NCBI GenBank assembly: GCA_017853385.1
Contig: JAFMJR010000007.1
Coordinates: 1-47,965, forward strand
Source: Ilumatobacteraceae bacterium
GTDB lineage: Bacteria > Actinomycetota > Acidimicrobiia > Acidimicrobiales > Ilumatobacteraceae
DNA length: 47,965 bases
Direction of reading: 5' to 3'
Positions 3,390-26,788 of the stretch are shown here, one piece after another. Made by a program: the position numbers and the translations under genes. Below the pieces are notes generated by a model. It searched no databases. It worked only from the letters and a program-made list of their open reading frames with translations, and was not told the DNA's origin. Numbering within the stretch: the stretch's first letter is position 1; each line of letters begins with the position of its first letter.

Positions 3390-3863
3390 ATGTCGTACGT
3401 GTTTTGCAACGGATGTGGTCATCGCAACCCTCCACAATCTGGATTCTGTTCGGCGTGCGGCTCGGTCCTTGATGTGCCAGAAGAGCGCACAATCGTGCTG
3501 TCAAAAGTGGATCCGTTGCAAGATGCGCCGGGAGATTTCGACAATGTTGCTGTGTCGTCGGCAGATTTGCATTCTGGAAGAGGCCTGCTTGTGGTCAGAT
3601 CGGGTGCGCAAAGTGGTAGCCGCTACTCACTGGACGGTGTAACCACCATCGGTCGCCATCCTGATAGCGCAATTTGTCTGGACGATGTCACCGTGTCACG
3701 ACGTCATGCGGAGATCGTTTTAACGAATGGTAAGTATGTGGTTCGTGACTTGGGTTCGCTAAACGGAACGTATGTGAATCAAATGAGAATTGACGACTTT
3801 GCGCTCGAACAAGGCGATGAATTGCAGGTCGGAAAGTATCGAATGGTGTTCTTCAATGGATGA
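3390..3863 (+). CDS. Zinc-ribbon + FHA domain protein (GarA-like)
   Basis: A 157-residue regulator. Residues 6-23 form a zinc ribbon (Cys6-x2-Cys9 and Cys20-x2-Cys23). Residues about 65-155 form a forkhead-associated domain with Gly88-Arg89-His90, Ser103-Arg-Arg-His106 and Asn125-Gly-Thr127, the phosphothreonine-binding residues. In mycobacteria and corynebacteria the GarA/OdhI protein at this position binds and inhibits 2-oxoglutarate dehydrogenase until a Ser/Thr kinase phosphorylates its N-terminal threonine. Here Thr34 after Glu-Glu-Arg may be the equivalent; that is inference. The gene overlaps the following merR by 8 bases and is probably co-transcribed with pgsA, merR and bfn. Confidence 0.88.
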   Translation: MSYVFCNGCGHRNPPQSGFCSACGSVLDVPEERTIVLSKVDPLQDAPGDFDNVAVSSADLHSGRGLLVVRSGAQSGSRYSLDGVTTIGRHPDSAICLDDVTVSRRHAEIVLTNGKYVVRDLGSLNGTYVNQMRIDDFALEQGDELQVGKYRMVFFNG

Positions 3864-4635
3864 AAAGAACTACAAGTCCATTGGTGAAGTACTAGGTCTT
3901 TTGTTGGACGAATTTCCTGACGTCACTATTTCAAAAATTCGTTTTCTCGAAAGTCAAGGTTTGATCGAGCCAGAGCGAACTCCTTCGGGTTATCGAAAAT
4001 TCAGCGACTCAGAGGTTGACCGCTTGCGATTCATTTTGCGCGAACAACGCGAGAATTATCTTCCGTTGAAAGTAATTCGCACACGGCTTGACAGCGACAC
4101 AAGCGATGGCATGGTGCGGCCATACGACGACACTGATCCAACTGGTGTTCGAGGTGTAGCAGTCCAGGGTTCGCACCCAGCTGCAGCAAAGAAGCTTTCG
4201 TCAGCTCCAATGGCGCCGCACAAAGTTCGCGCACAGCGCGATGACACGCTGTCGGTTGATCGAGGTGAGTTGTTGCTCGCAATCGACATGGATGAAAAAT
4301 TGCTGAAGGAAATTATTGGCGCAGGTTTAGTATCGCCTCGAAAAGTTGGTGACTTAGAAATGTTTTCACCTCTTGATCGCGAAATTCTGCAAATCATCAG
4401 AAAGTTTTCGGATCTCGGAATCGATGTTCGCAATTTAAAACGATGGAAGCAATCTGCTGAAGCTGAAGTCACACTCTATGAAGGTCGAATCAAGCCGTAC
4501 TTCATGCAAAAAAATCCAACTTCAAAGGCACAAGCTGAAGACATGCTTGACGATCTCATCGAGTTGGGTGAACAATTGCGTGCAACTCTTGTCGAAGTTG
4601 CAGCGCGTTCATTCAGAGGAAATCGCGCTCAATAG
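3856..4635 (+). CDS. MerR-family transcriptional regulator (Rv1828-like)
   Basis: A 259-residue protein with an N-terminal MerR winged helix-turn-helix at about 5-75, including the conserved ISKIRFLESQGLI and SGYRKFSD segments. The C-terminal half (about 135-250) looks like a second helical winged-helix-type domain rather than a metal-binding tail; no Cys metal site is visible. This long MerR type lies between garA and the bifunctional-nuclease gene in many actinobacteria (Rv1828 in M. tuberculosis). The ATG at 3856 is chosen because it begins just before the HTH and overlaps the garA-like stop by 8 bases; a longer frame from 3790 runs inside the FHA gene. The target genes are unknown. Confidence 0.88.
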   Translation: MDEKNYKSIGEVLGLLLDEFPDVTISKIRFLESQGLIEPERTPSGYRKFSDSEVDRLRFILREQRENYLPLKVIRTRLDSDTSDGMVRPYDDTDPTGVRGVAVQGSHPAAAKKLSSAPMAPHKVRAQRDDTLSVDRGELLLAIDMDEKLLKEIIGAGLVSPRKVGDLEMFSPLDREILQIIRKFSDLGIDVRNLKRWKQSAEAEVTLYEGRIKPYFMQKNPTSKAQAEDMLDDLIELGEQLRATLVEVAARSFRGNRAQ

Positions 4636-9736: not shown

Positions 9737-11020
9737 ATGTCTAAGCGCATTGATATTGAATTGACCAGTAATCGTGGAGATGGAACGTGGACTTGGCGTG
9801 CAGCCGGTGCCAAGACTCCAAAAGGCACACTGAATGGATCAATTCTTGATGCAAATGCGAAGACTGGTGACACCATCAAGGTGGAAGCTGAGTTTGATCT
9901 TGACGGAGTAGAAATTTTGTCTGTTGTAAAGACAAAAGAGAAATCAGTTCGTGGAAACCTGTTGCAGATCATCGGATCTGAAAAAGAGTTTCAACCTGTA
10001 ACTCAAAAACTCGCGGACAAAAGCAAAGATCGCAAGCCACGCAAAGACGGAGATCGCAAACCACGTCGCGATGGCGATAAGCGTCCAGGGCGAGATGGAG
10101 CAGATGGCGAGAAGACTGGTGATCGTCGTCCACGCCGACAATCGTTTACTGCCCCACCAGAACTTCCGAAGCGTCCAACTGCAAAGCGTTTGAAGCCGAA
10201 GCGAGTTCATCGAGCAGCTGTGCTTGACGCATTACCGGTTGAACAACGTGCAGTCGCCGAGCGCGCACTAACTGGAGGCATCAAGGCTGTTCGTGATGCC
10301 GTTAAAGAGCAGAACGATCAGTTGAAAAAAGAAGGCAAGCCATTGGTTCCCGCGGATGGTCTCATTTCAATGGCGCAAGAGTTGCTACCAAAACTTCGTG
10401 TGGCTGAATGGCTCGACAAGGCTGAAGCTGCAAAAGCAGAAATTGAATTGCTTGACTTGCGTGATTTGCGCCAGGTTGTTGTCGGTGCCGATGATCCGAT
10501 GGTCGTTCGTGACGAGACAACCCGCACGCTTGCCGCAGAATTGAAAGCAGCTTTGAAAACCCGTCAAGAATCTGAACAGGCTCAATGGCTTGAGGACATC
10601 AAGTCTGCAATCGCAGCGCCACGTGTTATTCGTGCGTTGAAGATTTCGAGTGAACCACCAAAAGCTGGCCAACCATTCCCAGCCGATCTCGGTGCTCAAC
10701 TTGCCGCAGTCGCGTCAACTTCATTGGCGTCCGAGACATCGCCAGATCGTTTCTGTGCGGTGCTTGAAGCCATTGCATTCTCACCAGTTCGTGGTCAAGT
10801 GAAACTTGCTGTAGTTCCGCCAAATCCAAGTGAAGCTGTGCTTGCAACGGTAAAGCGGGTTGCACCTTTGGTGCCACAGATTGCTGCTGTGTTCGGTGTG
10901 ACAGTTGCTCCGGGAGCACCAACGCCTCGTCCGCTACGCCCTACGCGTCCAGTTCGCCCGAAGGCAAAGCCTGCAACGGCAACAACACCCGCAGCAACAA
11001 CGCCCTCAACTTCTGCTTAG
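9737..11020 (+). CDS. Large basic protein of unknown function (427 aa)
   Basis: I do not recognise an established family. Residues 1-75 are beta-rich, possibly OB-like (segment GDTIKVEAEFDLDGVEI). Residues about 95-160 form a low-complexity Lys/Arg/Asp/Gly linker with repeated units such as RKPRRDGDKR. Residues about 160-390 form an alpha-helical domain with LRDLRQVVVGAD and VIRALKISSEPPK blocks. The tail is Pro/Ala/Thr-rich. The basic disordered linker resembles those of RNA-binding proteins, so nucleic-acid association is plausible but only inferred. No signal peptide or membrane segment is seen. The crotonase gene follows after 26 bases. Confidence 0.7.
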   Translation: MSKRIDIELTSNRGDGTWTWRAAGAKTPKGTLNGSILDANAKTGDTIKVEAEFDLDGVEILSVVKTKEKSVRGNLLQIIGSEKEFQPVTQKLADKSKDRKPRKDGDRKPRRDGDKRPGRDGADGEKTGDRRPRRQSFTAPPELPKRPTAKRLKPKRVHRAAVLDALPVEQRAVAERALTGGIKAVRDAVKEQNDQLKKEGKPLVPADGLISMAQELLPKLRVAEWLDKAEAAKAEIELLDLRDLRQVVVGADDPMVVRDETTRTLAAELKAALKTRQESEQAQWLEDIKSAIAAPRVIRALKISSEPPKAGQPFPADLGAQLAAVASTSLASETSPDRFCAVLEAIAFSPVRGQVKLAVVPPNPSEAVLATVKRVAPLVPQIAAVFGVTVAPGAPTPRPLRPTRPVRPKAKPATATTPAATTPSTSA

Positions 11021-13167: not shown

Positions 13168-13192
13168 AATTTCGCTGAAATAAGCAGAAATT
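13168..13192 (-). repeat. AT-rich inverted repeat overlapping the thyX stop
   Basis: AATTTC-GCT (13168-13176) pairs with AGC (13183-13185) and GAAATT (13187-13192) with one bulged A. The hairpin spans the end of the ThyX-like gene. It is weak, and no T-run follows on either strand, so it is not a convincing intrinsic terminator; it might stabilise the transcript end. Confidence 0.3.
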
Positions 13193-14798
13193 ACGAATTA
13201 CGGCGATTCTCTGCTTTGCGCTCTGAATCCAGCCGCTCTAGCGCTGGCGCTTCAAATGTCATATGGGTCATGGCATCGGCAACCGCGGTATGACCGGCCT
13301 TTTGGGCGATCAGGCGATGCATCTCAAGAACCACTCGACGATATGCGGGATGACCCTGAGGGGCAGAACGAAGCTCTAACAGGTGAATTGCTTCCCGGGC
13401 ATTGAATTGCATGCTGTAGCGCAGGCGGTACGCCATGGATATCGCATATGCAGCCTGTTCTGGGTAATCAGGTCGTAAAGCCTCGTACAACGTTGCTGAA
13501 CGCGTCATGGACTCTTCAAACTCGGAGGCGACACCAGCTTCTGCAACTAATTCAGGCATGACATATCCATGGTCTGGCGACAGCCGTTGCCACTCAATAG
13601 TAAGTAGACGATGGCGCTGTAGATCGCGGAATGCGCCGTAATCACCAAGTACATCAAATCGGTAATCAATCCGCTCAAAAGCACGACCCGGCTTATGTCG
13701 ACGATTTTCTCTATTGCCCACATAGGCAGAAATCAAGCGGACCTTTTCCTCATGACTCAACTGTGCAACCCGACTAAGAAGTTGAGACTCAGGGAGGTGA
13801 GAATGTGCATAGCAAATCGCAGCGAGCAACTTATTTTCACCATCTGGATCAAAATCAATTAGTTCCACTTCATTGACATGTTCTGGTTCAAGAGCACCAA
13901 ACATGTCGTCAACAAGAAACGCGGTTTGCTCGGCATTTGTTGCAAGATAACTGCTCCATTTACCGCCACGCTCTGGCAGATCAACCCTGCGTAGGAAACT
14001 AGGTATCACTTTGCGAAGTTCTGCAAGCATCATGTCTGCATATTGGCGAGATTCCGGCAGCGGATGAGCTCGCATTCGCAACAACATTGCTTCATAGGCC
14101 TGTCCGGTTCCATAGATGCCTACGTTTGAAAGAGCACTCGCGGGCAAGATTCCGCGAACGGAGTCCAATCCTTTAGCACGTGTTGCTTGTCGATAGACAA
14201 AATCCGAATCATTGATTCCTCTCGGAATCGTCTTGCGTACGTGATCTGTGACCGACTGAACGAGTGAACTGTAACTATCAAACATGCGATCCATGTCGCC
14301 CACGTAACGGGTTCCATACGGACCATTAAGAATTTCTGGATCACGGAAGTATCGATAACGACCTCCAAGTCGAGCGTCGTAATTGATGTATCGCGTGCTT
14401 TGCTCGAGATAACTCATCAATCTTCCCCACTCCAAAATCTTGGTGAGTAGGTTGGAGGCTTGTTCACACGCAAGATGAACCCCACCTAATTGGGCTACAG
14501 AGTCATCGCCGTATTCAACGAAAACTTTTTCGTAAAGAGCTTCTGCCTTGTCGATGCCGATAGTGGCATCAATTCCTATGTCGCCAGTTAAATCAAGATC
14601 ATTGACAAACTCATCTAGGAACAAACGACGCAAACTCTTTGGGCTTCGGCTATACCGGGCAAACAATGCCCCCTTCACCACTTCTGGCAGGTTTACCAAA
14701 GCAAAAACTGGTAGGTCTAAGTTGGTGAAGTATCGCTTGAGAATCTCCGATTCATCAGGTGAAAACGCCTCTGGGATATAGACCGTCACAAGGGGCAA
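13191..14798 (-). CDS. thyX: Double-length ThyX-like flavin-dependent thymidylate synthase homologue
   Basis: A 535-residue protein about twice the usual ThyX length (200-260), with two ThyX-type repeats. The first (about 30-265) contains MSYLEQSTRY (128-137), matching the Ser/Glu/Ser-x-Arg-Tyr part of the ThyX signature, but the RHR triplet is replaced by Trp-Gly-Arg (124-126). The second (about 330-510) keeps Arg-His-Arg (405-407) and the downstream Asn-Ala-Arg (466-468), but lacks the Ser seven residues after RHR. ThyX makes dTMP from dUMP using FAD, NADPH and methylene-tetrahydrofolate. Whether this fused form is active is unknown. No thyA is in the window. The frame is intact, so it is not a pseudogene. 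Confidence 0.8.
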   Translation of the reverse strand: MPLVTVYIPEAFSPDESEILKRYFTNLDLPVFALVNLPEVVKGALFARYSRSPKSLRRLFLDEFVNDLDLTGDIGIDATIGIDKAEALYEKVFVEYGDDSVAQLGGVHLACEQASNLLTKILEWGRLMSYLEQSTRYINYDARLGGRYRYFRDPEILNGPYGTRYVGDMDRMFDSYSSLVQSVTDHVRKTIPRGINDSDFVYRQATRAKGLDSVRGILPASALSNVGIYGTGQAYEAMLLRMRAHPLPESRQYADMMLAELRKVIPSFLRRVDLPERGGKWSSYLATNAEQTAFLVDDMFGALEPEHVNEVELIDFDPDGENKLLAAICYAHSHLPESQLLSRVAQLSHEEKVRLISAYVGNRENRRHKPGRAFERIDYRFDVLGDYGAFRDLQRHRLLTIEWQRLSPDHGYVMPELVAEAGVASEFEESMTRSATLYEALRPDYPEQAAYAISMAYRLRYSMQFNAREAIHLLELRSAPQGHPAYRRVVLEMHRLIAQKAGHTAVADAMTHMTFEAPALERLDSERKAENRRNS

Positions 14799-14832: not shown

Positions 14833-15456
14833 CTAAGAGACGAATAGGGCTAAGCAATCGCTCTGGACACGGCAAGAAACCTTCTGAACATGAGCTACAA
14901 ACTCGCCATCAATCACGAGACGTTTTGATGCGCCTTTCCACTGAAAAAAGTCGCCTTGGCTGTACTGGATCAAAGGGTGAGGTAAGTGGGCACCAGCAAC
15001 AGTTTTCTTCCAGGCCAAACGGCGTTGAGACCACCGCATAGCGGCTGATATCTCAACTATGTCAAGCTTTCCGTCATTTGGATGAGCTCGTGGTGCTACT
15101 TCTCTGCCACGCCAACAACCACTGTTGCTTACGATTGACAAAGCGCCTTGCAGGTAACGCTTTCCAATATGAAGCGAACCGAAGCAGACGTCGTGATGCT
15201 TTTTCCCATGGGTATCTTCGTACTCAACTGCAATTGCGTCAACAATGACCTTCAAACATTGTTGCCCTCTGTGAGCACTGTCAAGACCGAGAACTTTGAT
15301 GAGATCGCCACTTTCATACGAAATCGGTTGAGATTGGATTTCCTTGGCGTTGTGATCTCTGAGAAAGACGCCTACTTCACGGTCGGTGCGAAGTAGCAAC
15401 GAATCTGTGGGAGCATCACATCGCACCCCCCAAGCAGAGCCAGGTGTAATTGGCAT
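14833..15456 (-). CDS. Orphan lipid-kinase C-terminal-domain protein (DAGK/YegS-like, kinase half absent)
   Basis: A 207-residue protein whose C-terminal 100 residues resemble the beta-sandwich domain of diacylglycerol/sphingosine kinases (segments GREVAPRAHPNDGKLD and LVIDGEF). The catalytic N-terminal domain with its GGDGT nucleotide-binding motif is absent, and the frame shows no trace of it. The first 60 residues are a different segment starting MPITPGSAWG. I recall comparable stand-alone proteins in other actinobacteria, so it may be a real family rather than a fragment. ATG at 15456 begins one base after the helY stop, indicating tight coupling. Lipid binding is a possibility; no activity is claimed. 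Confidence 0.68.
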   Translation of the reverse strand: MPITPGSAWGVRCDAPTDSLLLRTDREVGVFLRDHNAKEIQSQPISYESGDLIKVLGLDSAHRGQQCLKVIVDAIAVEYEDTHGKKHHDVCFGSLHIGKRYLQGALSIVSNSGCWRGREVAPRAHPNDGKLDIVEISAAMRWSQRRLAWKKTVAGAHLPHPLIQYSQGDFFQWKGASKRLVIDGEFVAHVQKVSCRVQSDCLALFVS

Positions 15457-15457
15457 A

Positions 15458-18073
15458 TTACATTTTGCCGATCTGGCTAGATGCTGCAACTACGCCTGTG
15501 AATAATGATTTGGCAGCTAGAGAACTTGTCTGTTCGTCAACCTCTGCACTATTGATCGTCGAAAACTGCCTGAGTAGATCAATGAGTTGTTTCATAGTGC
15601 GAACAAAATCTCCTGCTGTCACATCGTCCTCATCCAGAATCTCAAACAGTGTCACACCATGTGACCAATCGAATACTGTTGCCATGAAACCGGCGTCAGG
15701 AACTCGGTGCGACTGCAGTCCTGCTTGATGCTCACTGATTGAAAGTCGTCTACTGATTTGATCAATCTTTTCAAATCGCTTCTTTAACTCGTTAGACGGG
15801 AAATGCGGCTTTGCGGTTTCATCCCTTCTTCGTTCTTCATATACGAACACCGAGGCAAGACTTGCCATTTCATGATGATTCAAGTCTTTGAAGAGTCCTT
15901 GCGCAATGCATTCGGCTATTAATAAATCGGACTCGTGGAAGATGCGTCCTAGTGATATTCCTTTTTCTGTGAGTGTCCAATTATCAACGTACCCCCATTC
16001 CTCGAGTAGACGAGTCAGGTCTTCAAACTTCTTACCCACTGAATGGGCAGACTGCGATACACGTTTTTCGAGTTGGTCGAGTTCCTTGGAAATCCGATCG
16101 GCGGATTCAGCTGCATTCAGTTTGAATTTTGCATTTGGATCTTTAAGGAAGGGATGATCTAAATGCAATCGACGAGGCTTGCGACCACTTCTTGTCAGCA
16201 TCCGATCATTAATTTTGAACTTGGCAAGTTTTCCTGCTGACTCCTTCAGAAAGCGAGAATTGGTTGGTTGAAATGGCATCGGCAAATCAATATGGCCAAG
16301 TGTGTAGATGGCATCACTGATATCTCTCGAGGAGACAGACCGAACACCCTTGTTCATTGAAAGCAAGGACAGTTTTCCTCCTGATCCGCGACTGGCAGTA
16401 GAAATCACGAGTAGCCGTTCATTTGGCAAAGCATCTCCAATCAGGACTACATCACCAGGACGAAGGCGAGAGAACTGATCTTCAGCATCAATATTTGGTC
16501 TTTGCGAAGATTGCCCTTTTCGGTAATCGTCAATATCGCCAAACTCGCTAACAGATTGATCCCTCAGGCGCTGCACCTCTTTGCTTCGCCGTGAAATTCG
16601 CGCTTGCACTTCAACAATTTCTCTACCAGATTGGAATTGGGCGAATGAAAGATTCAGAAGGTGTCTGGCCTGAACCTGACTTGTCGTGCGGATCAGATTT
16701 GCTGCCATGTTGTAGGTAGGACGAAATGCAGAATTGAGCACGAAAGAACGGCTTGTTGCTAGTGCCGCAACTTGATCAAAGGTCACAAACGGATTCCACA
16801 ATGTAAGGGCGTGCCCTACAGTGTCCAATCCTCTGCGACCAGCCCTGCCCGTTAGCTGAGAAAAGTCAGAAGGCTTAAGAGTCTGGTGTGTCTCGCCGTT
16901 GTATTTGGTGATCTTGTCCAGCACCACTGCTCGAGCAGGCATGTTGATACCTACCGCGAGCGTCTCAGTTGCGAACACCACTTTCACAAGCCCGCGCGCG
17001 AAACACTCCTCTACGGCTTCCTTGAAGCTTGGAACAAGACCAGCATGGTGGACGCCTATTCCTGCTTCTAACTGTTGGAGAAACCTGGTGTAGTTGAGTG
17101 CTGCCAAGTCGTCATCGGAGAATGCTTCAACATGACTTTCAAGAATTTCGGCAATTAATTCGCGGTCCTGGCGTGAAGTAAACGAAATACCCATCTTTAA
17201 GCACGCATGAGCGGCTTCGTCGCATTGATTGCGACTGAAAATGAAATAGATAGCTGGAAGTAAATCTTCGTCTCGCAATTGAAGAACGACGTCGGGCCGA
17301 TTGGGAGTGAAAAATCGACTCGGCGCAGAACCAAATCTCGCTCTAGAACCGTACGGATGCTGCTTTTTAGAACGCGGTGCAGTCATTGATTCGATCTTTG
17401 CAACCTGTTCGTTTGGCTTGCCGCCCACAATGGTGTCGAACATGCGAATTTGATTTGTCGTTTTGTCGCCAACTAAATAGTGGTTGATCAGTTCGACTGG
17501 ACGCTTTGATTCAACGATTGGACGAGTCGGTCCTCTGACCGTCGTAAGCCACTCACACAGTTCATCTGCATTGCTGACTGTTGCTGAAAGGCATACAAGC
17601 TGAACGGTGGGTTCGAGGTGAATGATTACTTCTTCCCAGACAGGTCCGCGATACGCGTCTTGCAAGAAGTGAACTTCATCAAGTACAACAACTGCAAGAT
17701 TGTCAATATTGGATGATCGCGCGTAAATCATGTTGCGCAACACCTCGGTAGTCATCACCACAATTGGGGCTTGCGGATTTACGCTGTTGTCGCCGGTGAG
17801 CAAACCAACTTCGTTCGGACCGTAAAGCTTGACTAGTTCATGGTATTTCTGGTTTGAAAGTGCCTTGATTGGCGCTGTATAAAAAGCTCGCTTACCACTT
17901 TTGCGTGCCAGGCCAATCGCATATTCAGCAACCACTGTTTTTCCTGAACCCGTCGGAGCTGCCACGAGCACACTTTCGCCTGCATCAAGACAATCAAATG
18001 CCTGAATTTGAAAATCATCAAGTTCAAAGGCATACCCACTCGTAAGCGAATTGCGGTAGGGGGAAGCCACCAT
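15458..18073 (-). CDS. helY: Ski2/Mtr4-type DEAD/DEAH-box RNA helicase HelY
   Basis: An 871-residue superfamily 2 helicase. Motif I is APTGSGKT (39-46), motif II DEVH in VVLDEVHFLQD (about 135), motif III SAT, motif V ATETLAVGINMPAR and motif VI QLTGRAGRRG. A long C-terminal region (about 480-870) carries the DSHCT-type helical end of the Ski2-like family. HelY orthologues occupy the same place next to tatC in mycobacteria; an RNA-processing or decay role is inferred from the family. It begins 3 bases after tatC and is followed by the orphan lipid-kinase domain gene, all on the same strand. Confidence 0.93.
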   Translation of the reverse strand: MVASPYRNSLTSGYAFELDDFQIQAFDCLDAGESVLVAAPTGSGKTVVAEYAIGLARKSGKRAFYTAPIKALSNQKYHELVKLYGPNEVGLLTGDNSVNPQAPIVVMTTEVLRNMIYARSSNIDNLAVVVLDEVHFLQDAYRGPVWEEVIIHLEPTVQLVCLSATVSNADELCEWLTTVRGPTRPIVESKRPVELINHYLVGDKTTNQIRMFDTIVGGKPNEQVAKIESMTAPRSKKQHPYGSRARFGSAPSRFFTPNRPDVVLQLRDEDLLPAIYFIFSRNQCDEAAHACLKMGISFTSRQDRELIAEILESHVEAFSDDDLAALNYTRFLQQLEAGIGVHHAGLVPSFKEAVEECFARGLVKVVFATETLAVGINMPARAVVLDKITKYNGETHQTLKPSDFSQLTGRAGRRGLDTVGHALTLWNPFVTFDQVAALATSRSFVLNSAFRPTYNMAANLIRTTSQVQARHLLNLSFAQFQSGREIVEVQARISRRSKEVQRLRDQSVSEFGDIDDYRKGQSSQRPNIDAEDQFSRLRPGDVVLIGDALPNERLLVISTASRGSGGKLSLLSMNKGVRSVSSRDISDAIYTLGHIDLPMPFQPTNSRFLKESAGKLAKFKINDRMLTRSGRKPRRLHLDHPFLKDPNAKFKLNAAESADRISKELDQLEKRVSQSAHSVGKKFEDLTRLLEEWGYVDNWTLTEKGISLGRIFHESDLLIAECIAQGLFKDLNHHEMASLASVFVYEERRRDETAKPHFPSNELKKRFEKIDQISRRLSISEHQAGLQSHRVPDAGFMATVFDWSHGVTLFEILDEDDVTAGDFVRTMKQLIDLLRQFSTINSAEVDEQTSSLAAKSLFTGVVAASSQIGKM

Positions 18074-20618: not shown

Positions 20619-21977
20619 TTACAGCGAGTCAATCAACTTCTGAACACGTGAATCAACAGATTTAAGTGGGTCTTTGCAGATAACGGTCCGTGGCGGTTCC
20701 TCATTTATCTTCAGATGGACCCAATCAACCGTAAAATCTCTTTGCTTCGCCTTTGCCTGTCGAATGAAATCACCTCGTAATTTCGCTCTTGTTGCCTGTG
20801 GCGGCTTGGTTTTAGCTTCCTCGATTTCCAGATCGGTACACATGCGTTTTACTAAATCTGATGACTGCAGTTTGTAAAATATCCCTCGATCCCTTCTGAT
20901 GTCATGATATTGAAGGTCAATCATCTGAGACCGGGAATCGTCCAACGCAATTCCATGACGATTCCGGTAATTTTCAATCAACTTGTACTTGATCACCCAG
21001 TCAACTTCTCGATCTAGGAGCAATGGGTCCTTTTCAATTGTTTCGACGCAGTGTCGCCACATCTCTAGTGCGAGCAACTCTTCGTTTGCGAAGCCTCGTT
21101 GCTCTGAAAACTTAATTGCACGTTCGACCAGTTCATGTTGAATTTCAACGGCTGACAGTTCCCTGCCGTTAGCTAATTTGATTTTCTTTCTGCAAGAGAT
21201 GTCATGGCTGATGTCACGAATCGCTCGAGCAGGATTTTCCAATGTGAAATCGCGAAGCGAGAAATGCTCGGCCTCCATCATTCGCAGCATGCAGGCAGCC
21301 GATCCGATCTTCACGTACGAGGCATATTCGCTCATATTTGAATCGCCAACAATTACATGGAGACGTCTATGAACGTCAGCATCTGCATGAGGTTCATCAC
21401 GAGTATTGATAATTGGTCTACTTCGAGTCGTAGCACTACTTACGCCGTCCCATATATGCTCAGCACGTTGAGACATTGCATAAATTGGTCCTCGTGATGT
21501 CTGCAGAATATTTCCGGCACCACAGAAGATCTGTCTAGTGATCAGGTATGGAATGAAAGTTGTTTCGTAATCTATAAAGTCGCTCGCGCGAGAAGTCAGA
21601 TAATTTTCGTGGCACCCATAACTGTTTCCGGCAAAGTCAAGATTGTTCTTAAAAAGGTATACGTTTCCACGTATGCCTTCTTCCTGCAATTTTTGTTCGG
21701 CGCCAAATTGCAAATCTTGCATAATTAACTCGCCAGCTTTATCGTGCTTCACTACATCATGAATTGAGTCGCATTCTGCAGTTGCGTATTCAGGATGGCT
21801 TCCCACATCTAGATACAACCGTGAGCCATTTTCCATGAAAACATTTGAACTTCGTCCCCAGGCAACAACATTCTTAAACAAGTATCGGGATATCTCGTCG
21901 GGGCTAAGTCGACGTTGCCCTCGCAAAGTGCAGGTGGCCCCATATTCGGTTTCTATCCCGAATATTCTGCGCTTCAT
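20619..21977 (-). CDS. pafA: Pup--protein ligase PafA
   Basis: A 452-residue ligase that joins the C-terminal glutamate of Pup to substrate lysines using ATP. The N-terminal FGIETEYG block carries Glu9, equivalent to the metal-binding Glu of the M. tuberculosis enzyme, and further conserved motifs are [20 protein letters not shown] and [12 protein letters not shown]. It lacks the active-site insertion that Dop has, as expected. It lies 4 bases after prcA and precedes lepB. Unlike in Mycobacterium, no pafB or pafC is downstream. Confidence 0.96.
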
Positions 21978-21981
21978 TTGG

Positions 21982-22659
21982 TTATTTCAGTAAATCTTCT
22001 AGAGACTGATCAGAAATTCTCTTGAAACATCTGCGCGCACCATTTCGCTGCAGAACTGCTACTTCTAAATCGTGTGCGGTGAGTTTGCGGTCGTCGCTTG
22101 ACAATGCGGTTATGGCTAACTGAGCCGACTCTTTCAATGAAAGATTTGGTGTAAATCCGGTTTCGATTTTGGTTCGAATGGAGTCGGCATCACCGCCAAT
22201 GACAATAAATCGTTGCTCGTCTAAGACCGTTCCGTCATACATAATGTGAAAAAGTTGGTCTTTGTCAGAAGTTGCACCCAGTTCAGCAATGAGAATTTCA
22301 ACTTCTAATGGCTTGACTTCGTGGGTGAAAGTTTGGCCAATCATTTGTGCATACTGGTTTGCGAGACTTCGGGCATCGACGTCTTGTCGTGAAAATTGGT
22401 ACCCCTTTAGGTCAGCAGATCGCACGCCAAGCACGCGCAGTTGATCAAACTCGTTATATTTTCCAACTCCAGCGAAAGCTATGCGATCGTAAATTTCGCT
22501 TATCTTGCGCAGAGTATGTGAAGGATTCTCGGCAACAATGGCGATTCCGTCAGCAAATTGCATTGCCACTAGTGAGCGACCGCGTGCGATTCCTTTTCGT
22601 GCAAAGTCTGCACGATCCTTCATCATCTGTTCCGGGGCAACGTAATACGGCATGCTCAT
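21982..22659 (-). CDS. prcA: 20S proteasome alpha subunit
   Basis: A 225-residue alpha-type proteasome subunit. It opens with [20 protein letters not shown], an actinobacterial PrcA N-terminus that gates the chamber, followed by [10 protein letters not shown] and the [12 protein letters not shown] segment. It has no catalytic threonine, as expected of an alpha subunit. Its start overlaps the prcB stop by 4 bases (ATGA), so the two subunits are translationally coupled, fitting their equal stoichiometry in the 28-subunit barrel. The C-terminus ends soon after [11 protein letters not shown], shorter than in M. tuberculosis. Confidence 0.96.
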
Positions 22660-23441
22660 CGCTGTTTTACTCCCGCTGTGATTTGATCAAACACAACTTC
22701 AAGGTCGTTATCACTTACCCGTTGAAACCCATCTTTAGTAATGGTTGCAACTACTGGGTAAATGCCCCGAAGAATATCTGGACCACCTGTAGCCGAATCG
22801 GCATCAGAGGCCTCCCATAACGACTGGGAAACTAAGTGAACTGCCTCAGCCGTTGTCAGGTTTTTTCGCCAGCCAACTCGCAAAACGGTTGCTGCATGCA
22901 ATTGGCCCGAGCCGGTAGCAACGAAATCCAACTCTTCATAACGACCACCAGTTGCGTCGTAGTCCCAGAGTCTTCCGCCCTGAGAAACTTCGTCGAAGCC
23001 GGCAAAAATGGGAACAACCATGAGACCCTGCATCGCGGCTGGGAGATTATTGCGAACAAACATCGAAAGCTGGTTTGCTTTGCCCTCAAGCGAGAGAGGC
23101 TGCCCTTCCACCTTTTCGTAATGCTCTATTTGCAATTGAAATAGTTTCACCATTTCCATTGCAGGGCCTGCGGCTCCGGCAATTGCAACACCACTGAATT
23201 CGTCAGCCTGAACCACTTTTTCCATACTGCGATGACTGATCAGGTTTCCTGAGGTTGCACGGCGATCGCCAGCCATCACCACCCCGTCTGAACACTTAAC
23301 TGCTACACAAGTTGTCGCATGAGGAATTTCAAGTTTTGAGACATCGGCAAACTGCTCAAAGGGCGAAAGCCCAACTCGCTTGAGTAACTCCCCAAAATTC
23401 GAACCTGGATCTTGATCGGAAGGAAAAACAGGAAGAATCAT
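22656..23441 (-). CDS. prcB: 20S proteasome beta subunit
   Basis: A 261-residue beta-type subunit. A 42-residue propeptide is followed by the catalytic Thr43 (sequence PHA, then TTC), which becomes the N-terminus after self-cleavage. Asp in AGDRR and Lys in SMEKVV match the Thr/Asp/Lys catalytic set. Later blocks (SDADSATGGPDILRGIYP) are typical. The ribosome-binding site GAGG lies five bases before the ATG at 23441, and pup ends 18 bases upstream. The residue before the cleavage point is Ala, where M. tuberculosis has Gly. Confidence 0.96.
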   Translation of the reverse strand: MILPVFPSDQDPGSNFGELLKRVGLSPFEQFADVSKLEIPHATTCVAVKCSDGVVMAGDRRATSGNLISHRSMEKVVQADEFSGVAIAGAAGPAMEMVKLFQLQIEHYEKVEGQPLSLEGKANQLSMFVRNNLPAAMQGLMVVPIFAGFDEVSQGGRLWDYDATGGRYEELDFVATGSGQLHAATVLRVGWRKNLTTAEAVHLVSQSLWEASDADSATGGPDILRGIYPVVATITKDGFQRVSDNDLEVVFDQITAGVKQR

Positions 23442-23459
23442 GATTACCTCAGGCTAAGG

Positions 23460-23654
23460 CTATTGCCCACCCTTTTGCACGTAGCTCTTTACAAACTCAT
23501 CTGCATTGGTTTCAAGAACTTCGTCAATTTGATCAAGAATCGAATCGATGTCATCCACGATTTCCTGATTCGGTGAAGTCTGCACCTCTTCGGGTACCTC
23601 AGATACTTCTTGTTTCTGTTTCTTAGCAACTGGCTTGAACACTCGCTCAGACAT
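23460..23654 (-). CDS. pup: Prokaryotic ubiquitin-like protein Pup
   Basis: A 64-residue disordered protein ending Gly-Gly-Gln, the hallmark of Pup forms that Dop must deamidate to Gly-Gly-Glu before PafA can attach them to lysines. The C-terminal half (about 29-60) has the acidic coiled-coil segment IDDILD-like pattern and LETNADEFVKSYVQKG, which docks on the coiled coil of Arc. The start lies 2 bases from the dop stop, and prcB follows 18 bases downstream. Lysines are concentrated in the first 15 residues. Confidence 0.97.
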   Translation of the reverse strand: MSERVFKPVAKKQKQEVSEVPEEVQTSPNQEIVDDIDSILDQIDEVLETNADEFVKSYVQKGGQ

Positions 23655-23656
23655 AG

Positions 23657-25165
23657 TTACACAGTACCTGTCGAGTCTGAGTTGCTGCCAAGCCGTGCAA
23701 GTAGTTCGCTAACCGAAGCGCACTGCTCAATTATTGGACCAACCAATTCCTGAGTGCCACGCAAAGGCTCATTCATTTCAACTTTTCGCAGTGGACCATT
23801 GTCGGCATCGAAAACGATGCTGTCCCAATTGGCATTAACAATGTGATCGGGCCATTTCTCCACGACTAACCCACGAAAATATGCCCGAGTGTCTTTTGGA
23901 GGTATGTGTGTTGCAGCGTGACTGTCTTCTAATGACACCAATTTAAGTAACGACATTTTGTTAGCCAAACACTTGTGCTCATCAATGGCGTGATACATCA
24001 AATCAATTGCCTTTAGTTTTGGATCTCCGGAATCTAAGTTGTGTCGTGATTGGAAACCATTAACGAGTCTCCTTTTGGCGATCCAATCTATTTTCGTTTG
24101 CAATAAATCCGGATTCCTTTGAAGAGCACCCAAGGTAGACGACCATTCGTCGATAATTGATTGTGCTTCATGATGGGTCAAACCGATGCTCTCATGTGAG
24201 GAGATGTACTCCGAAGCCTTTTCACAGAGCATCTGCTGTATACCTAAAGCGTTGATTCGGCGACCGTCGGCAAGTAGCACGGTTGTGCTTAATGATGGAT
24301 CCAAACTGATTTGTTTAATCGCATGTACAGGATGAGCAATAAACAAATTTTCAGGAAAACAACCGTCTTCGATCATTGACAGAATCAAAGCTGTTGTTCC
24401 CAACTTGAGGAATGTTGCGTATTGACTCATATTTGCATCACCAGCGATCACGTGAAGCCTTCGATACTTCAGCGCGTCACAATGAGGTTCGTCTCTGGTG
24501 TTCACGATCGGCCGTTTCATAGTCGTTTCAAGACCTATGACCTCTTCAAAGAAGTCTGACCTCTGACTAATTTGATATCCACGGGGGTCGGTTGAACCAG
24601 TGGGCGACTCTCTGCCAACTTTCCCTGCGCCACAGAAAATCTGCCGTGATACAAAATGGGACGTAATCATTGCGGCAAGTTGAGAAAAAGGAATTTCACG
24701 ACTCACCAAATAGTTTTCGTGACATCCATAACTGTTGCATTTGCCATCTGAGTTGTTTTTAAATAATGAAATATCAACTCCATCTGGAAGTCGCCCATTG
24801 GCCTTATTCATGCTCTCTCGAACAATGTGTTCTCCAGCGACGTCATATAGAACTGCATCTCTGATGGTTCTGCACTCAGGAGATGAGTACTCGGGGTGGG
24901 CGTGATCAACGTAATATCGAGCACCGTTTCCAAGGACGGTATTCAACATTTTTGAATCAATCGTCGGATCGAGATAATCATCGAGATTGACTCCCCGAGC
25001 ATCCGATGAAGGATTTTCGCTACTCAGGTCAAAATTTGTGGTTCCCCAGTTGGAATCCTTATACGCACTTACGATTAATGAGGAAGCCGTTACCGGGTCG
25101 AGATCTAGTCCAGTGACATGAATTCCATATTCAGTCTCAATTCCACATACTTTTGCAATCGCCAC
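23657..25165 (-). CDS. dop: Deamidase/depupylase Dop
   Basis: A 502-residue paralogue of PafA that converts the C-terminal glutamine of Pup to glutamate and removes Pup from substrates. CGIETEYG (Glu10) starts the metal/ATP site. An insertion of about 40 residues after it (about 35-75; block SSENPSSDARGVN) corresponds to the Dop loop absent from PafA. Other matching blocks are GCHENYLVSREI, HVIAGDANMSQYA and WIAKRRLVNGF. It starts with GTG at 25165, immediately after the arc stop, and pup follows 2 bases after its own stop. Confidence 0.95.
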   Translation of the reverse strand: MAIAKVCGIETEYGIHVTGLDLDPVTASSLIVSAYKDSNWGTTNFDLSSENPSSDARGVNLDDYLDPTIDSKMLNTVLGNGARYYVDHAHPEYSSPECRTIRDAVLYDVAGEHIVRESMNKANGRLPDGVDISLFKNNSDGKCNSYGCHENYLVSREIPFSQLAAMITSHFVSRQIFCGAGKVGRESPTGSTDPRGYQISQRSDFFEEVIGLETTMKRPIVNTRDEPHCDALKYRRLHVIAGDANMSQYATFLKLGTTALILSMIEDGCFPENLFIAHPVHAIKQISLDPSLSTTVLLADGRRINALGIQQMLCEKASEYISSHESIGLTHHEAQSIIDEWSSTLGALQRNPDLLQTKIDWIAKRRLVNGFQSRHNLDSGDPKLKAIDLMYHAIDEHKCLANKMSLLKLVSLEDSHAATHIPPKDTRAYFRGLVVEKWPDHIVNANWDSIVFDADNGPLRKVEMNEPLRGTQELVGPIIEQCASVSELLARLGSNSDSTGTV

Positions 25166-26788
25166 TTATAGGTACTGCCCTGTGGCTGCGCGTTCTATTT
25201 CCTTGCCACCAATCAATTCACCACTTTCACCTTCGCGTCGTGCGATGGTCCTGATGTATACGATTCGCTCGCCTTTGCGTCCCGAAATTTTTGCCCAATC
25301 ATCTGGATTGGTGGTATTCGGCAGATCTTCATGTTCAGCAAATTCTTGTCTGACCGCAGACAGCAGATCCGAATTTGTGATCCCACCTGATAGGCCGTCA
25401 ATTTTTCTCTTTAGAGCCAATTTCTTTGCTCTGCGCACAATGTTTTCGAGCATTGCTCCAGACAGGAAATCTTTGTAGTACAACTCTTCCTTTTCACCAT
25501 TTTGATATGTAATTTCCAGAAATTTATTTGAATCTGATTGGTCAAAGATGCACTCAAGGGCTGAGTCAGCAAGAGATTCAACGCTGGTTTCAATACCAAT
25601 TGGAAGATCGCCAGATAGATAGCGCATAATAATTTCACGCGCAGCAGCACGATCTGGCCGATCAATTTTGATTTTTATATCAAGTCGGCCTGGTCGCAAT
25701 ATTGCTGGATCAATGAGATCTTCGCGATTAGTTGCTCCGATGATGATGACATTTTGCAAATTATCTGCACCATCAATTTCGGCTAAAAGCTGAGGAACAA
25801 TCGTCGATTCCATATCTGAGGAAACCCCTGTGCCTCGAGTACGAAACATTGAATCCATTTCGTCGAAAAAAATGATGACTGGCCAGCCCTCTTCACTCTT
25901 TTCACGTGCGCGTTGGAAAACAAGGCGTATTTGTCGTTCAGTTTCTCCCACAAACTTGTTGAGGAGTTCCGGGCCTTTGATGTTGATGAAGTAGGAACGA
26001 CCTTTGTCGCTCCCTGATTTCGTTGCAACACGCTTCGCCAGACTGTTAGCAACTGCTTTAGCAATGAGCGTTTTGCCGCAACCGGGTGGCCCGTAAAGAA
26101 GGATGCCCTTTGGTGCGGGCAGTTGATATTCAGCAAATAGATCAGCGTGGAGAAAAGGAAGTTCTACGGCATCGCGGATACGTTCAATTTGGCTATCTAA
26201 CCCACCGATGTCTTGAAATGTCACATCAGGGACATGTTCAAGCAAGAGATGCTCGATTTCGGGTTGGGCGATACGTTCTAAAAGTAAATTCGAACGTAAA
26301 TCAAGACGCAAGCGGTCACCTGTTCGCAGGTTTGCTGCCCGCAACGAGTCGGATAGCTCGCATACCCGCTCTTCTTCTCCCCTGTAAGTGATTATTGCTC
26401 GCAGACCATCATCAAGCACTTTGGTCAGAACAACTACGTCCCCTGCTGATTCTGGTTTTCTCGCCTCAACGATGCTCATTTGATCATTGAGAATGACCTC
26501 TGCGCCAAGTTCGATGGCATCAACGTCGACTGCGCCACCAACAGTGACCCGCAGTTTTCTTCCGTTGACGAGAACGTCAAATTGGCCATCTGGATTTCGT
26601 CCAACAACTACTCCGTACGGATTAGGGGGCTGGGTCAACTTCTGAACCCGTTCTCCGAGGTGCACTACTTCTTCACGGAGTTCTCGGAGGGCGTACTCAA
26701 GGCGATGGTTTTTTTCTATTTCTCGCGCGAGTTTCAATTCAGCCGAAACTTCGCCATCGATGCCATCAGGGTGACGATTCTCAGCCAT
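25166..26788 (-). CDS. arc: Proteasome-activating AAA+ ATPase Arc/Mpa
   Basis: A 540-residue ring-forming ATPase. It has an N-terminal coiled coil (about 12-52) that binds Pup, two OB-fold segments (about 55-170), and an AAA+ module with Walker A GPPGCGKT (233-240), Walker B FFDEMDS and the NREDLIDPAILRPGR sensor/arginine-finger region. The last four residues, GQYL, contain the penultimate tyrosine with which Mpa docks on the 20S core. It unfolds pupylated substrates and feeds them to PrcAB. It heads the operon arc-dop-pup-prcB-prcA-pafA-lepB. A GGAGGG ribosome-binding site lies 6 bases upstream of the ATG. Confidence 0.97.
   Translation of the reverse strand: MAENRHPDGIDGEVSAELKLAREIEKNHRLEYALRELREEVVHLGERVQKLTQPPNPYGVVVGRNPDGQFDVLVNGRKLRVTVGGAVDVDAIELGAEVILNDQMSIVEARKPESAGDVVVLTKVLDDGLRAIITYRGEEERVCELSDSLRAANLRTGDRLRLDLRSNLLLERIAQPEIEHLLLEHVPDVTFQDIGGLDSQIERIRDAVELPFLHADLFAEYQLPAPKGILLYGPPGCGKTLIAKAVANSLAKRVATKSGSDKGRSYFINIKGPELLNKFVGETERQIRLVFQRAREKSEEGWPVIIFFDEMDSMFRTRGTGVSSDMESTIVPQLLAEIDGADNLQNVIIIGATNREDLIDPAILRPGRLDIKIKIDRPDRAAAREIIMRYLSGDLPIGIETSVESLADSALECIFDQSDSNKFLEITYQNGEKEELYYKDFLSGAMLENIVRRAKKLALKRKIDGLSGGITNSDLLSAVRQEFAEHEDLPNTTNPDDWAKISGRKGERIVYIRTIARREGESGELIGGKEIERAATGQYL

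Follow-up and report, generated by a model that had tools for sequence, protein, structure and literature searches.

An essential enzyme and drug target, flavin-dependent thymidylate synthase (ThyX) has active sites that are each common to three subunits. How might such sites be built by a protein that carries two ThyX domains on one chain, with the catalytic signature split between them? This question is raised by a gene in the 47,965-nucleotide stretch of DNA analyzed here (the window; contig JAFMJR010000007.1 of assembly GCA_017853385.1, from an Ilumatobacteraceae bacterium of the order Acidimicrobiales), whose source is a draft genome of 1.5 Mb that is 90% complete. An initial annotation of the window, made from the letters alone, had reported an intact frame of 535 residues at 13191-14798 without giving a strand; we find this frame on the minus strand, free of internal stops and 535 codons long when counted from the TTG at 14798. 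The GTG at 14789 is the probable start, because homologues and the profile match begin there, and would give a product of 532 amino acids. The gene is laid out as follows.

13191 to 14798, minus strand: double-ThyX gene, with the probable GTG start at 14789
13902 to 14708, minus strand: N-terminal ThyX domain, residues 31-299
13878 to 13901, minus strand: interdomain junction, residues 300-307, placed from model secondary structure and the domain limits
13251 to 13877, minus strand: C-terminal ThyX domain, residues 308-516

Both halves of the protein are ThyX domains. The single open frame contains two matches to PF02511 (Thy1), the sole Pfam family that the protein matches, with a total of 120 bits against a cutoff of 24.8 in the Pfam and genome profile searches; the initial annotation had suggested this two-domain check and had allowed that only one half might match. 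In profile-profile comparisons (hhalign) of each half, represented by about 105 homologues, with Thermotoga maritima ThyX (its sequence verified against PDB entry 1kq4) and single-domain actinobacterial ThyX, the N half matched with E 3e-17 and the C half with E 8e-16, both in register across the active-site segments. Plain sequence comparison of the full chain with the PDB returned no ThyX match, and a profile search of the PDB returned marginal matches only. AlphaFold2 modeled the whole chain with a mean predicted local distance difference test score (pLDDT) of 94.7 and a predicted template modeling score of 0.92. When the halves were compared with known structures, the best ThyX match of the C half was 1o26_A (Z score 16.7 over 190 residues, root-mean-square deviation [rmsd] 2.2 Å), and that of the N half, modeled alone (pLDDT 90.7), had a Z score of 14.7 over 201 residues (rmsd 3.8 Å). 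The first 47 entries matched by the N half all have the ThyX fold and the next, an unrelated one, has a Z score of 4.5; across these comparisons, unrelated folds drop to Z scores of 4-4.5.

We compared the active-site residues of the two halves across 107 homologues, of which 67 are cellular (the window protein included) and 40 come from viral contigs, with 20-75% identity to the window protein. Residue roles are numbered after T. maritima ThyX, and RHR denotes the Arg78-His79-Arg80 triplet. The segments concerned, with their retention in this set and their contacts to deoxyuridine monophosphate (dUMP) and flavin, are these.

14646 to 14660, minus strand: N half ARYSR (residues 47-51), in which Ser50 corresponds to T. 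maritima Ser30 of the folate/flavin loop; Ser in 67/67 cellular and 37/40 viral copies
14421 to 14429, minus strand: N half, degenerate RHR position, Trp124-Gly125-Arg126
14388 to 14417, minus strand: N half MSYLEQSTRY (residues 128-137), dUMP side, with Glu132, Ser134, Arg136 and Tyr137 at the positions of Glu86, Ser88, Arg90 and Tyr91
14154 to 14156, minus strand: N half Arg215, equivalent to Arg147 (dUMP phosphate)
13608 to 13616, minus strand: C half Arg395-His396-Arg397, the RHR (flavin phosphate and isoalloxazine; dUMP)
13575 to 13592, minus strand: C half, degenerate stretch (residues 403-408) in the place of Glu86 to Tyr91
13395 to 13403, minus strand: C half Asn466-Ala-Arg468, equivalent to Asn163/Arg165; mostly lost in viral copies
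13350 to 13376, minus strand: C half ELR (residues 475-477), in which Arg477 is equivalent to Arg174 and polarizes dUMP, and QGH (481-483), in which His483 is kept in 106/107

In the N half, Glu86, Ser88, Arg90 and Arg147 are present in all 107 homologues and Tyr91 in 103, so that the full set of five is found in 103/107. His79 survives in a single N half and the RHR triplet in none, while Arg78 itself is only partly lost (present in 35/107). The C half shows the converse: Arg78, His79 and Arg80 are present in 107/107, Arg174 in 106/107 and all four together in 106/107, and at most one of the five N-half residues is left in any C half. The RHR-x7-S-x-R-Y signature is never whole in one domain, as RHR is absent from every N half and S-x-R-Y occurs in only 1/107 C halves. 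The same residue table came out when the halves were aligned with single ThyX proteins in a separate computation, and the single-domain proteins in that alignment carry both residue sets, with Gln replacing Glu86 in 6/10. Because the pattern is found in 107 homologues and again in the separate alignment, this strict, complementary retention is real and not due to chance, and it holds down to about 20% identity. Most of what the initial annotation had read by eye stands: the N-half MSYLEQSTRY and the Trp-Gly-Arg in place of RHR, the C-half Asn-Ala-Arg at 466-468, and the C-half RHR itself, which lies at 395-397 and not at 405-407 as had been given. The loss of the C-half serine is also correct (the Ser88 site is Arg405), and Glu86, Arg90, Tyr91 and Arg147 are gone with it.

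Structural work on ThyX has shown that its active sites are built by three subunits of the tetramer (PMC3498832, PMC4913046, PMC6514825). In the Mycobacterium tuberculosis site, subunit A supplies RHR 95-97 and Arg199 (equivalent to Arg174), subunit B supplies Ser71 and Arg190 (Thr55 and Arg165), and subunit C supplies Gln103, Ser105, Arg107 and Tyr108 (Glu86, Ser88, Arg90 and Tyr91) (PMC6514825); we refer to these contributions as roles A, B and C. Independently, Ser88 and Arg182 (equivalent to Arg174) of a viral ThyX were placed on different monomers (PMC3498832). The initial annotation had proposed that a fused pair could form hybrid sites in which each half supplies what the other lacks. 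This idea fits the known structures, because the C-half group falls on subunit A and the N-half group on subunit C (PMC6514825), and the retention pattern, read together with these published subunit roles, supports it at the level of sequence. The window protein has the complete role A and role C contacts to dUMP and flavin, the C half providing those of role A and the N half those of role C; none of the dUMP-pocket residues examined is missing from both halves, an absence that had been envisaged. A site with the C half as subunit A and the N half as subunit C is thus complete for both roles, while the converse site is incomplete, since the role C set is missing from every C half.

We propose, with a probability of roughly 0.83, that the double protein is a flavin-dependent thymidylate synthase in which an ancestral ThyX was duplicated and fused, after which the two copies underwent reciprocal residue loss, leaving hybrid sites. 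The C-terminal domain would act as subunit A, with Arg78-His79-Arg80 holding the flavin and Arg174 activating dUMP, and the N-terminal domain would act as subunit C, with Glu86, Ser88, Arg90, Tyr91 and Arg147 holding dUMP and the domain bearing the active-site loop. Two chains would together form a pseudo-tetramer resembling the ThyX tetramer; it would have one complete hybrid site per fused chain, two in all, where ThyX has four identical sites. Because only one pairing is complete, two of the four sites in such a dimer should work, and the other two would be dead. The reaction should be the conversion of dUMP to thymidine monophosphate (dTMP) with methylene-tetrahydrofolate, flavin adenine dinucleotide (FAD) and NADPH.

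We next considered whether the double protein serves as the cell's thymidylate synthase, as the initial annotation had suggested it might. PF02511 was found in 60 of 61 sampled genomes of the order, as a double frame in nearly all, while ThyA was absent from 60/61 and dihydrofolate reductase (DHFR) from the same 60. The sole exception (G028) has thyA and DHFR adjacent as a cassette (G028:C9:92265-93478), alongside the double ThyX. In 59 of the 60 sampled order genomes that carry the double protein, no other thymidylate synthase was found, and these 59 have neither ThyA nor DHFR. ThyX leaves tetrahydrofolate and not dihydrofolate, so the absence of DHFR is what would be expected where ThyX is in use. 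The 90%-complete draft from which the window comes contains no match to ThyA (PF00303, Thymidylat_synt) and no second ThyX, either of which the initial annotation had thought worth looking for. In a sample of 296 genomes across the phylum, 95 of which have the double protein, a full-size ThyA match was found in 1/95 double carriers versus 44/201 others (Fisher p 1.6e-7, a significance inflated by shared ancestry), and no extra canonical ThyX appeared in the double carriers among the matches listed. On this genome content, the assignment of the double ThyX as the cell's thymidylate synthase is well supported, not proven. Two side observations come from the same sample. Five genomes (G069, G099, G110, G131 and G210) have no double-ThyX match, and each has a single weak match to PF02511 (E 1e-9 to 1e-11), possibly a further divergent ThyX. 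Some 45 actinobacterial genomes, mostly of families f38, f49, f51 and f55, match PF00303 weakly and in part (E about 1e-8 to 1e-15), and many of them have no ThyX match; their dTMP may come from a divergent ThyA-like family.

The double protein is also found well beyond the order. A scan of named records gave essentially actinobacterial entries, with Conexibacter, Solirubrobacter, Patulibacter and many Acidimicrobiia as named carriers; Euzebya, Miltoncostaea and 200-kb Bacillus and Paenibacillus plasmids carry it too, as does a Parabacteroides distasonis record that has DHFR four genes downstream. Relatives lie on 44 viral contigs, and Vibrio phages carry the double protein. In Tunturiibacter phage Tunturi_5 the double ThyX adjoins dCMP deaminase, with dUTPase nearby, and in two other phage copies (L148 and L153) the upstream neighbor is dUTPase, the product of which is dUMP. 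The split of roles A and C held in 5/5 named phage and plasmid copies examined. On one viral contig (L149), a gene for IMP dehydrogenase/GMP reductase (3556-4566, plus strand) directly follows the double ThyX.

In a tree of the halves and single ThyX proteins, the N halves form one clade (0.998), the C halves another (1.0) and single ThyX a third (0.78). Because the N-half clade and the C-half clade each unite cellular with phage sequences, the tree points to a single duplication and fusion, older than the split of the cellular and phage forms; its basis, a deep, short alignment of 185 columns, gives this conclusion moderate weight. Independent origins of the cell and phage forms were rejected on the same clades, with the same weight.

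Cells and phages differ in where the third, role B, group lies, as judged from an alignment of phage copies (L146-L189) versus cellular ones (L066-L145). Phage N halves keep His53 (35/40), Glu or Asp at 58 (38/40), Asn163 (28/40) and Arg165 (35/40), and phage C halves are mostly without them. In cellular proteins, by contrast, it is the C half that keeps Glu58 (67/67), Asn163 (63/67) and Arg165 (67/67), and the N half that carries the equivalent of Thr55 (Ser100). Cellular and phage proteins may use different axes to pair their halves, or they may differ in how folate is stacked. A fuller version of this idea, which we regard as tentative and probably wrong in at least some part, takes the enzyme to be a naturally occurring pseudo-heterotetramer, two of its sites live and two dead, in which the third role (the flavin adenine/phosphate and folate-side residues) would sit in different halves in cells and in phages, so that the halves would be paired differently; the emptied sites may be regulatory, and the cellular form would work without the folate-stacking histidine.

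Several observations weigh against the hybrid thymidylate synthase proposed above. The role B residues are not cleanly sorted in cellular proteins, with the Thr55 site in the N half and Glu58, Asn163 and Arg165 in the C half. His53, the folate-stacking residue in T. maritima ThyX, is absent from both halves in all 67 cellular homologues (Asp98 and Pro370 in the window protein); crystal entries of T. maritima His53Asp such as 4kas hold FAD and dUMP, so Asp at this position is no bar to ligand binding. The protein scores 36.7 bits against the NCBIfam thyX equivalog TIGR02170, below the cutoff of 87.9, for which reason it is classed as a variant and not as the canonical single-domain equivalog. 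The genome is only 90% complete, and it has a thymidine kinase, so that salvage could in principle supply dTMP. The thymidine kinase, with the loss of His53, would suit a ThyX-like protein that methylates another nucleotide or is dispensable, and the fold family offers precedents in PolB, a UMP methylase (PMC5003785; 4p5a/4p5b), and in the atypical Corynebacterium glutamicum ThyX, not required for thymidylate according to the titles of entries 3ge9/3fnn. We consider this improbable, given that the double ThyX is near-universal in an order without ThyA and DHFR, that carriers across the phylum strongly avoid ThyA, that the dUMP-site residues are complete and that phage copies are linked to dUTPase and dCMP deaminase. 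We keep, as a weak rival, thymidine salvage as the only source of dTMP; the non-catalytic or differently specific enzyme that the initial annotation had offered beside a thymidylate synthase is now the weaker of its two options.

A different objection is that the N half is merely a structural or regulatory partner and that the C half makes all the working sites with replacement residues. The C half does keep RHR, NAR and ELR and match ThyX structures more closely, and fusion is often followed by complete degeneration of a partner domain. Yet the strictest invariants of the N half are precisely dUMP and catalytic-loop residues (Glu132, Ser134, Arg136 and Arg215, each in 107/107). A scaffold could do without these residues, and the C half keeps none of them consistently; we judge this explanation improbable as well, if anything slightly more so. 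That two adjacent genes were misread as one, or that the gene is a decayed copy, has nothing in its favor except the draft status of the genome, and its chance is negligible: the frame has no internal stops, and almost every sampled relative has it as a single frame too, as do one-contig genomes (e.g., G033 and G038) and isolates (Conexibacter arvalis and Patulibacter minatonensis among them).

Around the double-ThyX gene, promoter and terminator scans gave no result above chance. The gene immediately upstream (14833-15489, minus strand) has a match to the YegS/lipid-kinase beta-sandwich domain (PF19279, positions 52-156) that covers just the C-terminal part of this domain, has no catalytic kinase domain match, and appears to be a short or broken lipid-kinase-like gene. 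Elsewhere in the window, a frame of 427 residues (9737-11020, plus strand) has no match in Pfam or NCBIfam, and a Pup-proteasome cluster (20619-26788, minus strand) comprises two Pup-ligase family genes, one proteasome-subunit match and a proteasomal ATPase, as is ordinary for actinobacteria.

The double ThyX, currently labeled simply "FAD-dependent thymidylate synthase," appears to be the only way in which a large part of the Actinomycetota (Acidimicrobiia and Solirubrobacterales/Thermoleophilia included) makes new thymidylate, and large phages also carry the gene. It amounts to a natural experiment in which evolution labels which subunit does what: because the roles lie on two domains of one chain, each could be mutated alone, which is impossible in a homotetramer. 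In the open-licence literature we found no account of the split in catalytic roles, of the spread in Actinomycetota and large phages, or of sole-synthase status.

Among known systems, the nearest in description is a domain duplication mentioned in passing, as uncharacterized, for Chloroflexi (Valas & Bourne 2009, PMC3224940); this "duplicated ThyX" is very probably the same protein, likened by description only, and the account comes without motif, role or structural analysis. Phage double ThyX proteins (phrog_36506 and the 491-aa thymidylate synthase of Microcystis phage LMM01) have the same architecture but carry His53, Glu58, Asn163 and Arg165 in the N half, whereas in cellular copies Glu58, Asn163 and Arg165 belong to the C half. 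The atypical C. glutamicum ThyX and PolB are divergent members of the ThyX fold that match both halves structurally; unlike the double protein they are single-domain, and they are not the organism's thymidylate synthase, or not dUMP specific. The ThyX homotetramers (PF02511; T. maritima TM0449, M. tuberculosis and PBCV-1) share the fold of each half and, in total, the same dUMP and flavin contacts. The canonical enzyme places these in one domain of about 220 residues with a full RHR-x7-S-x-R-Y and four identical sites, whereas the fused protein has two domains per chain and divides the signature between them.
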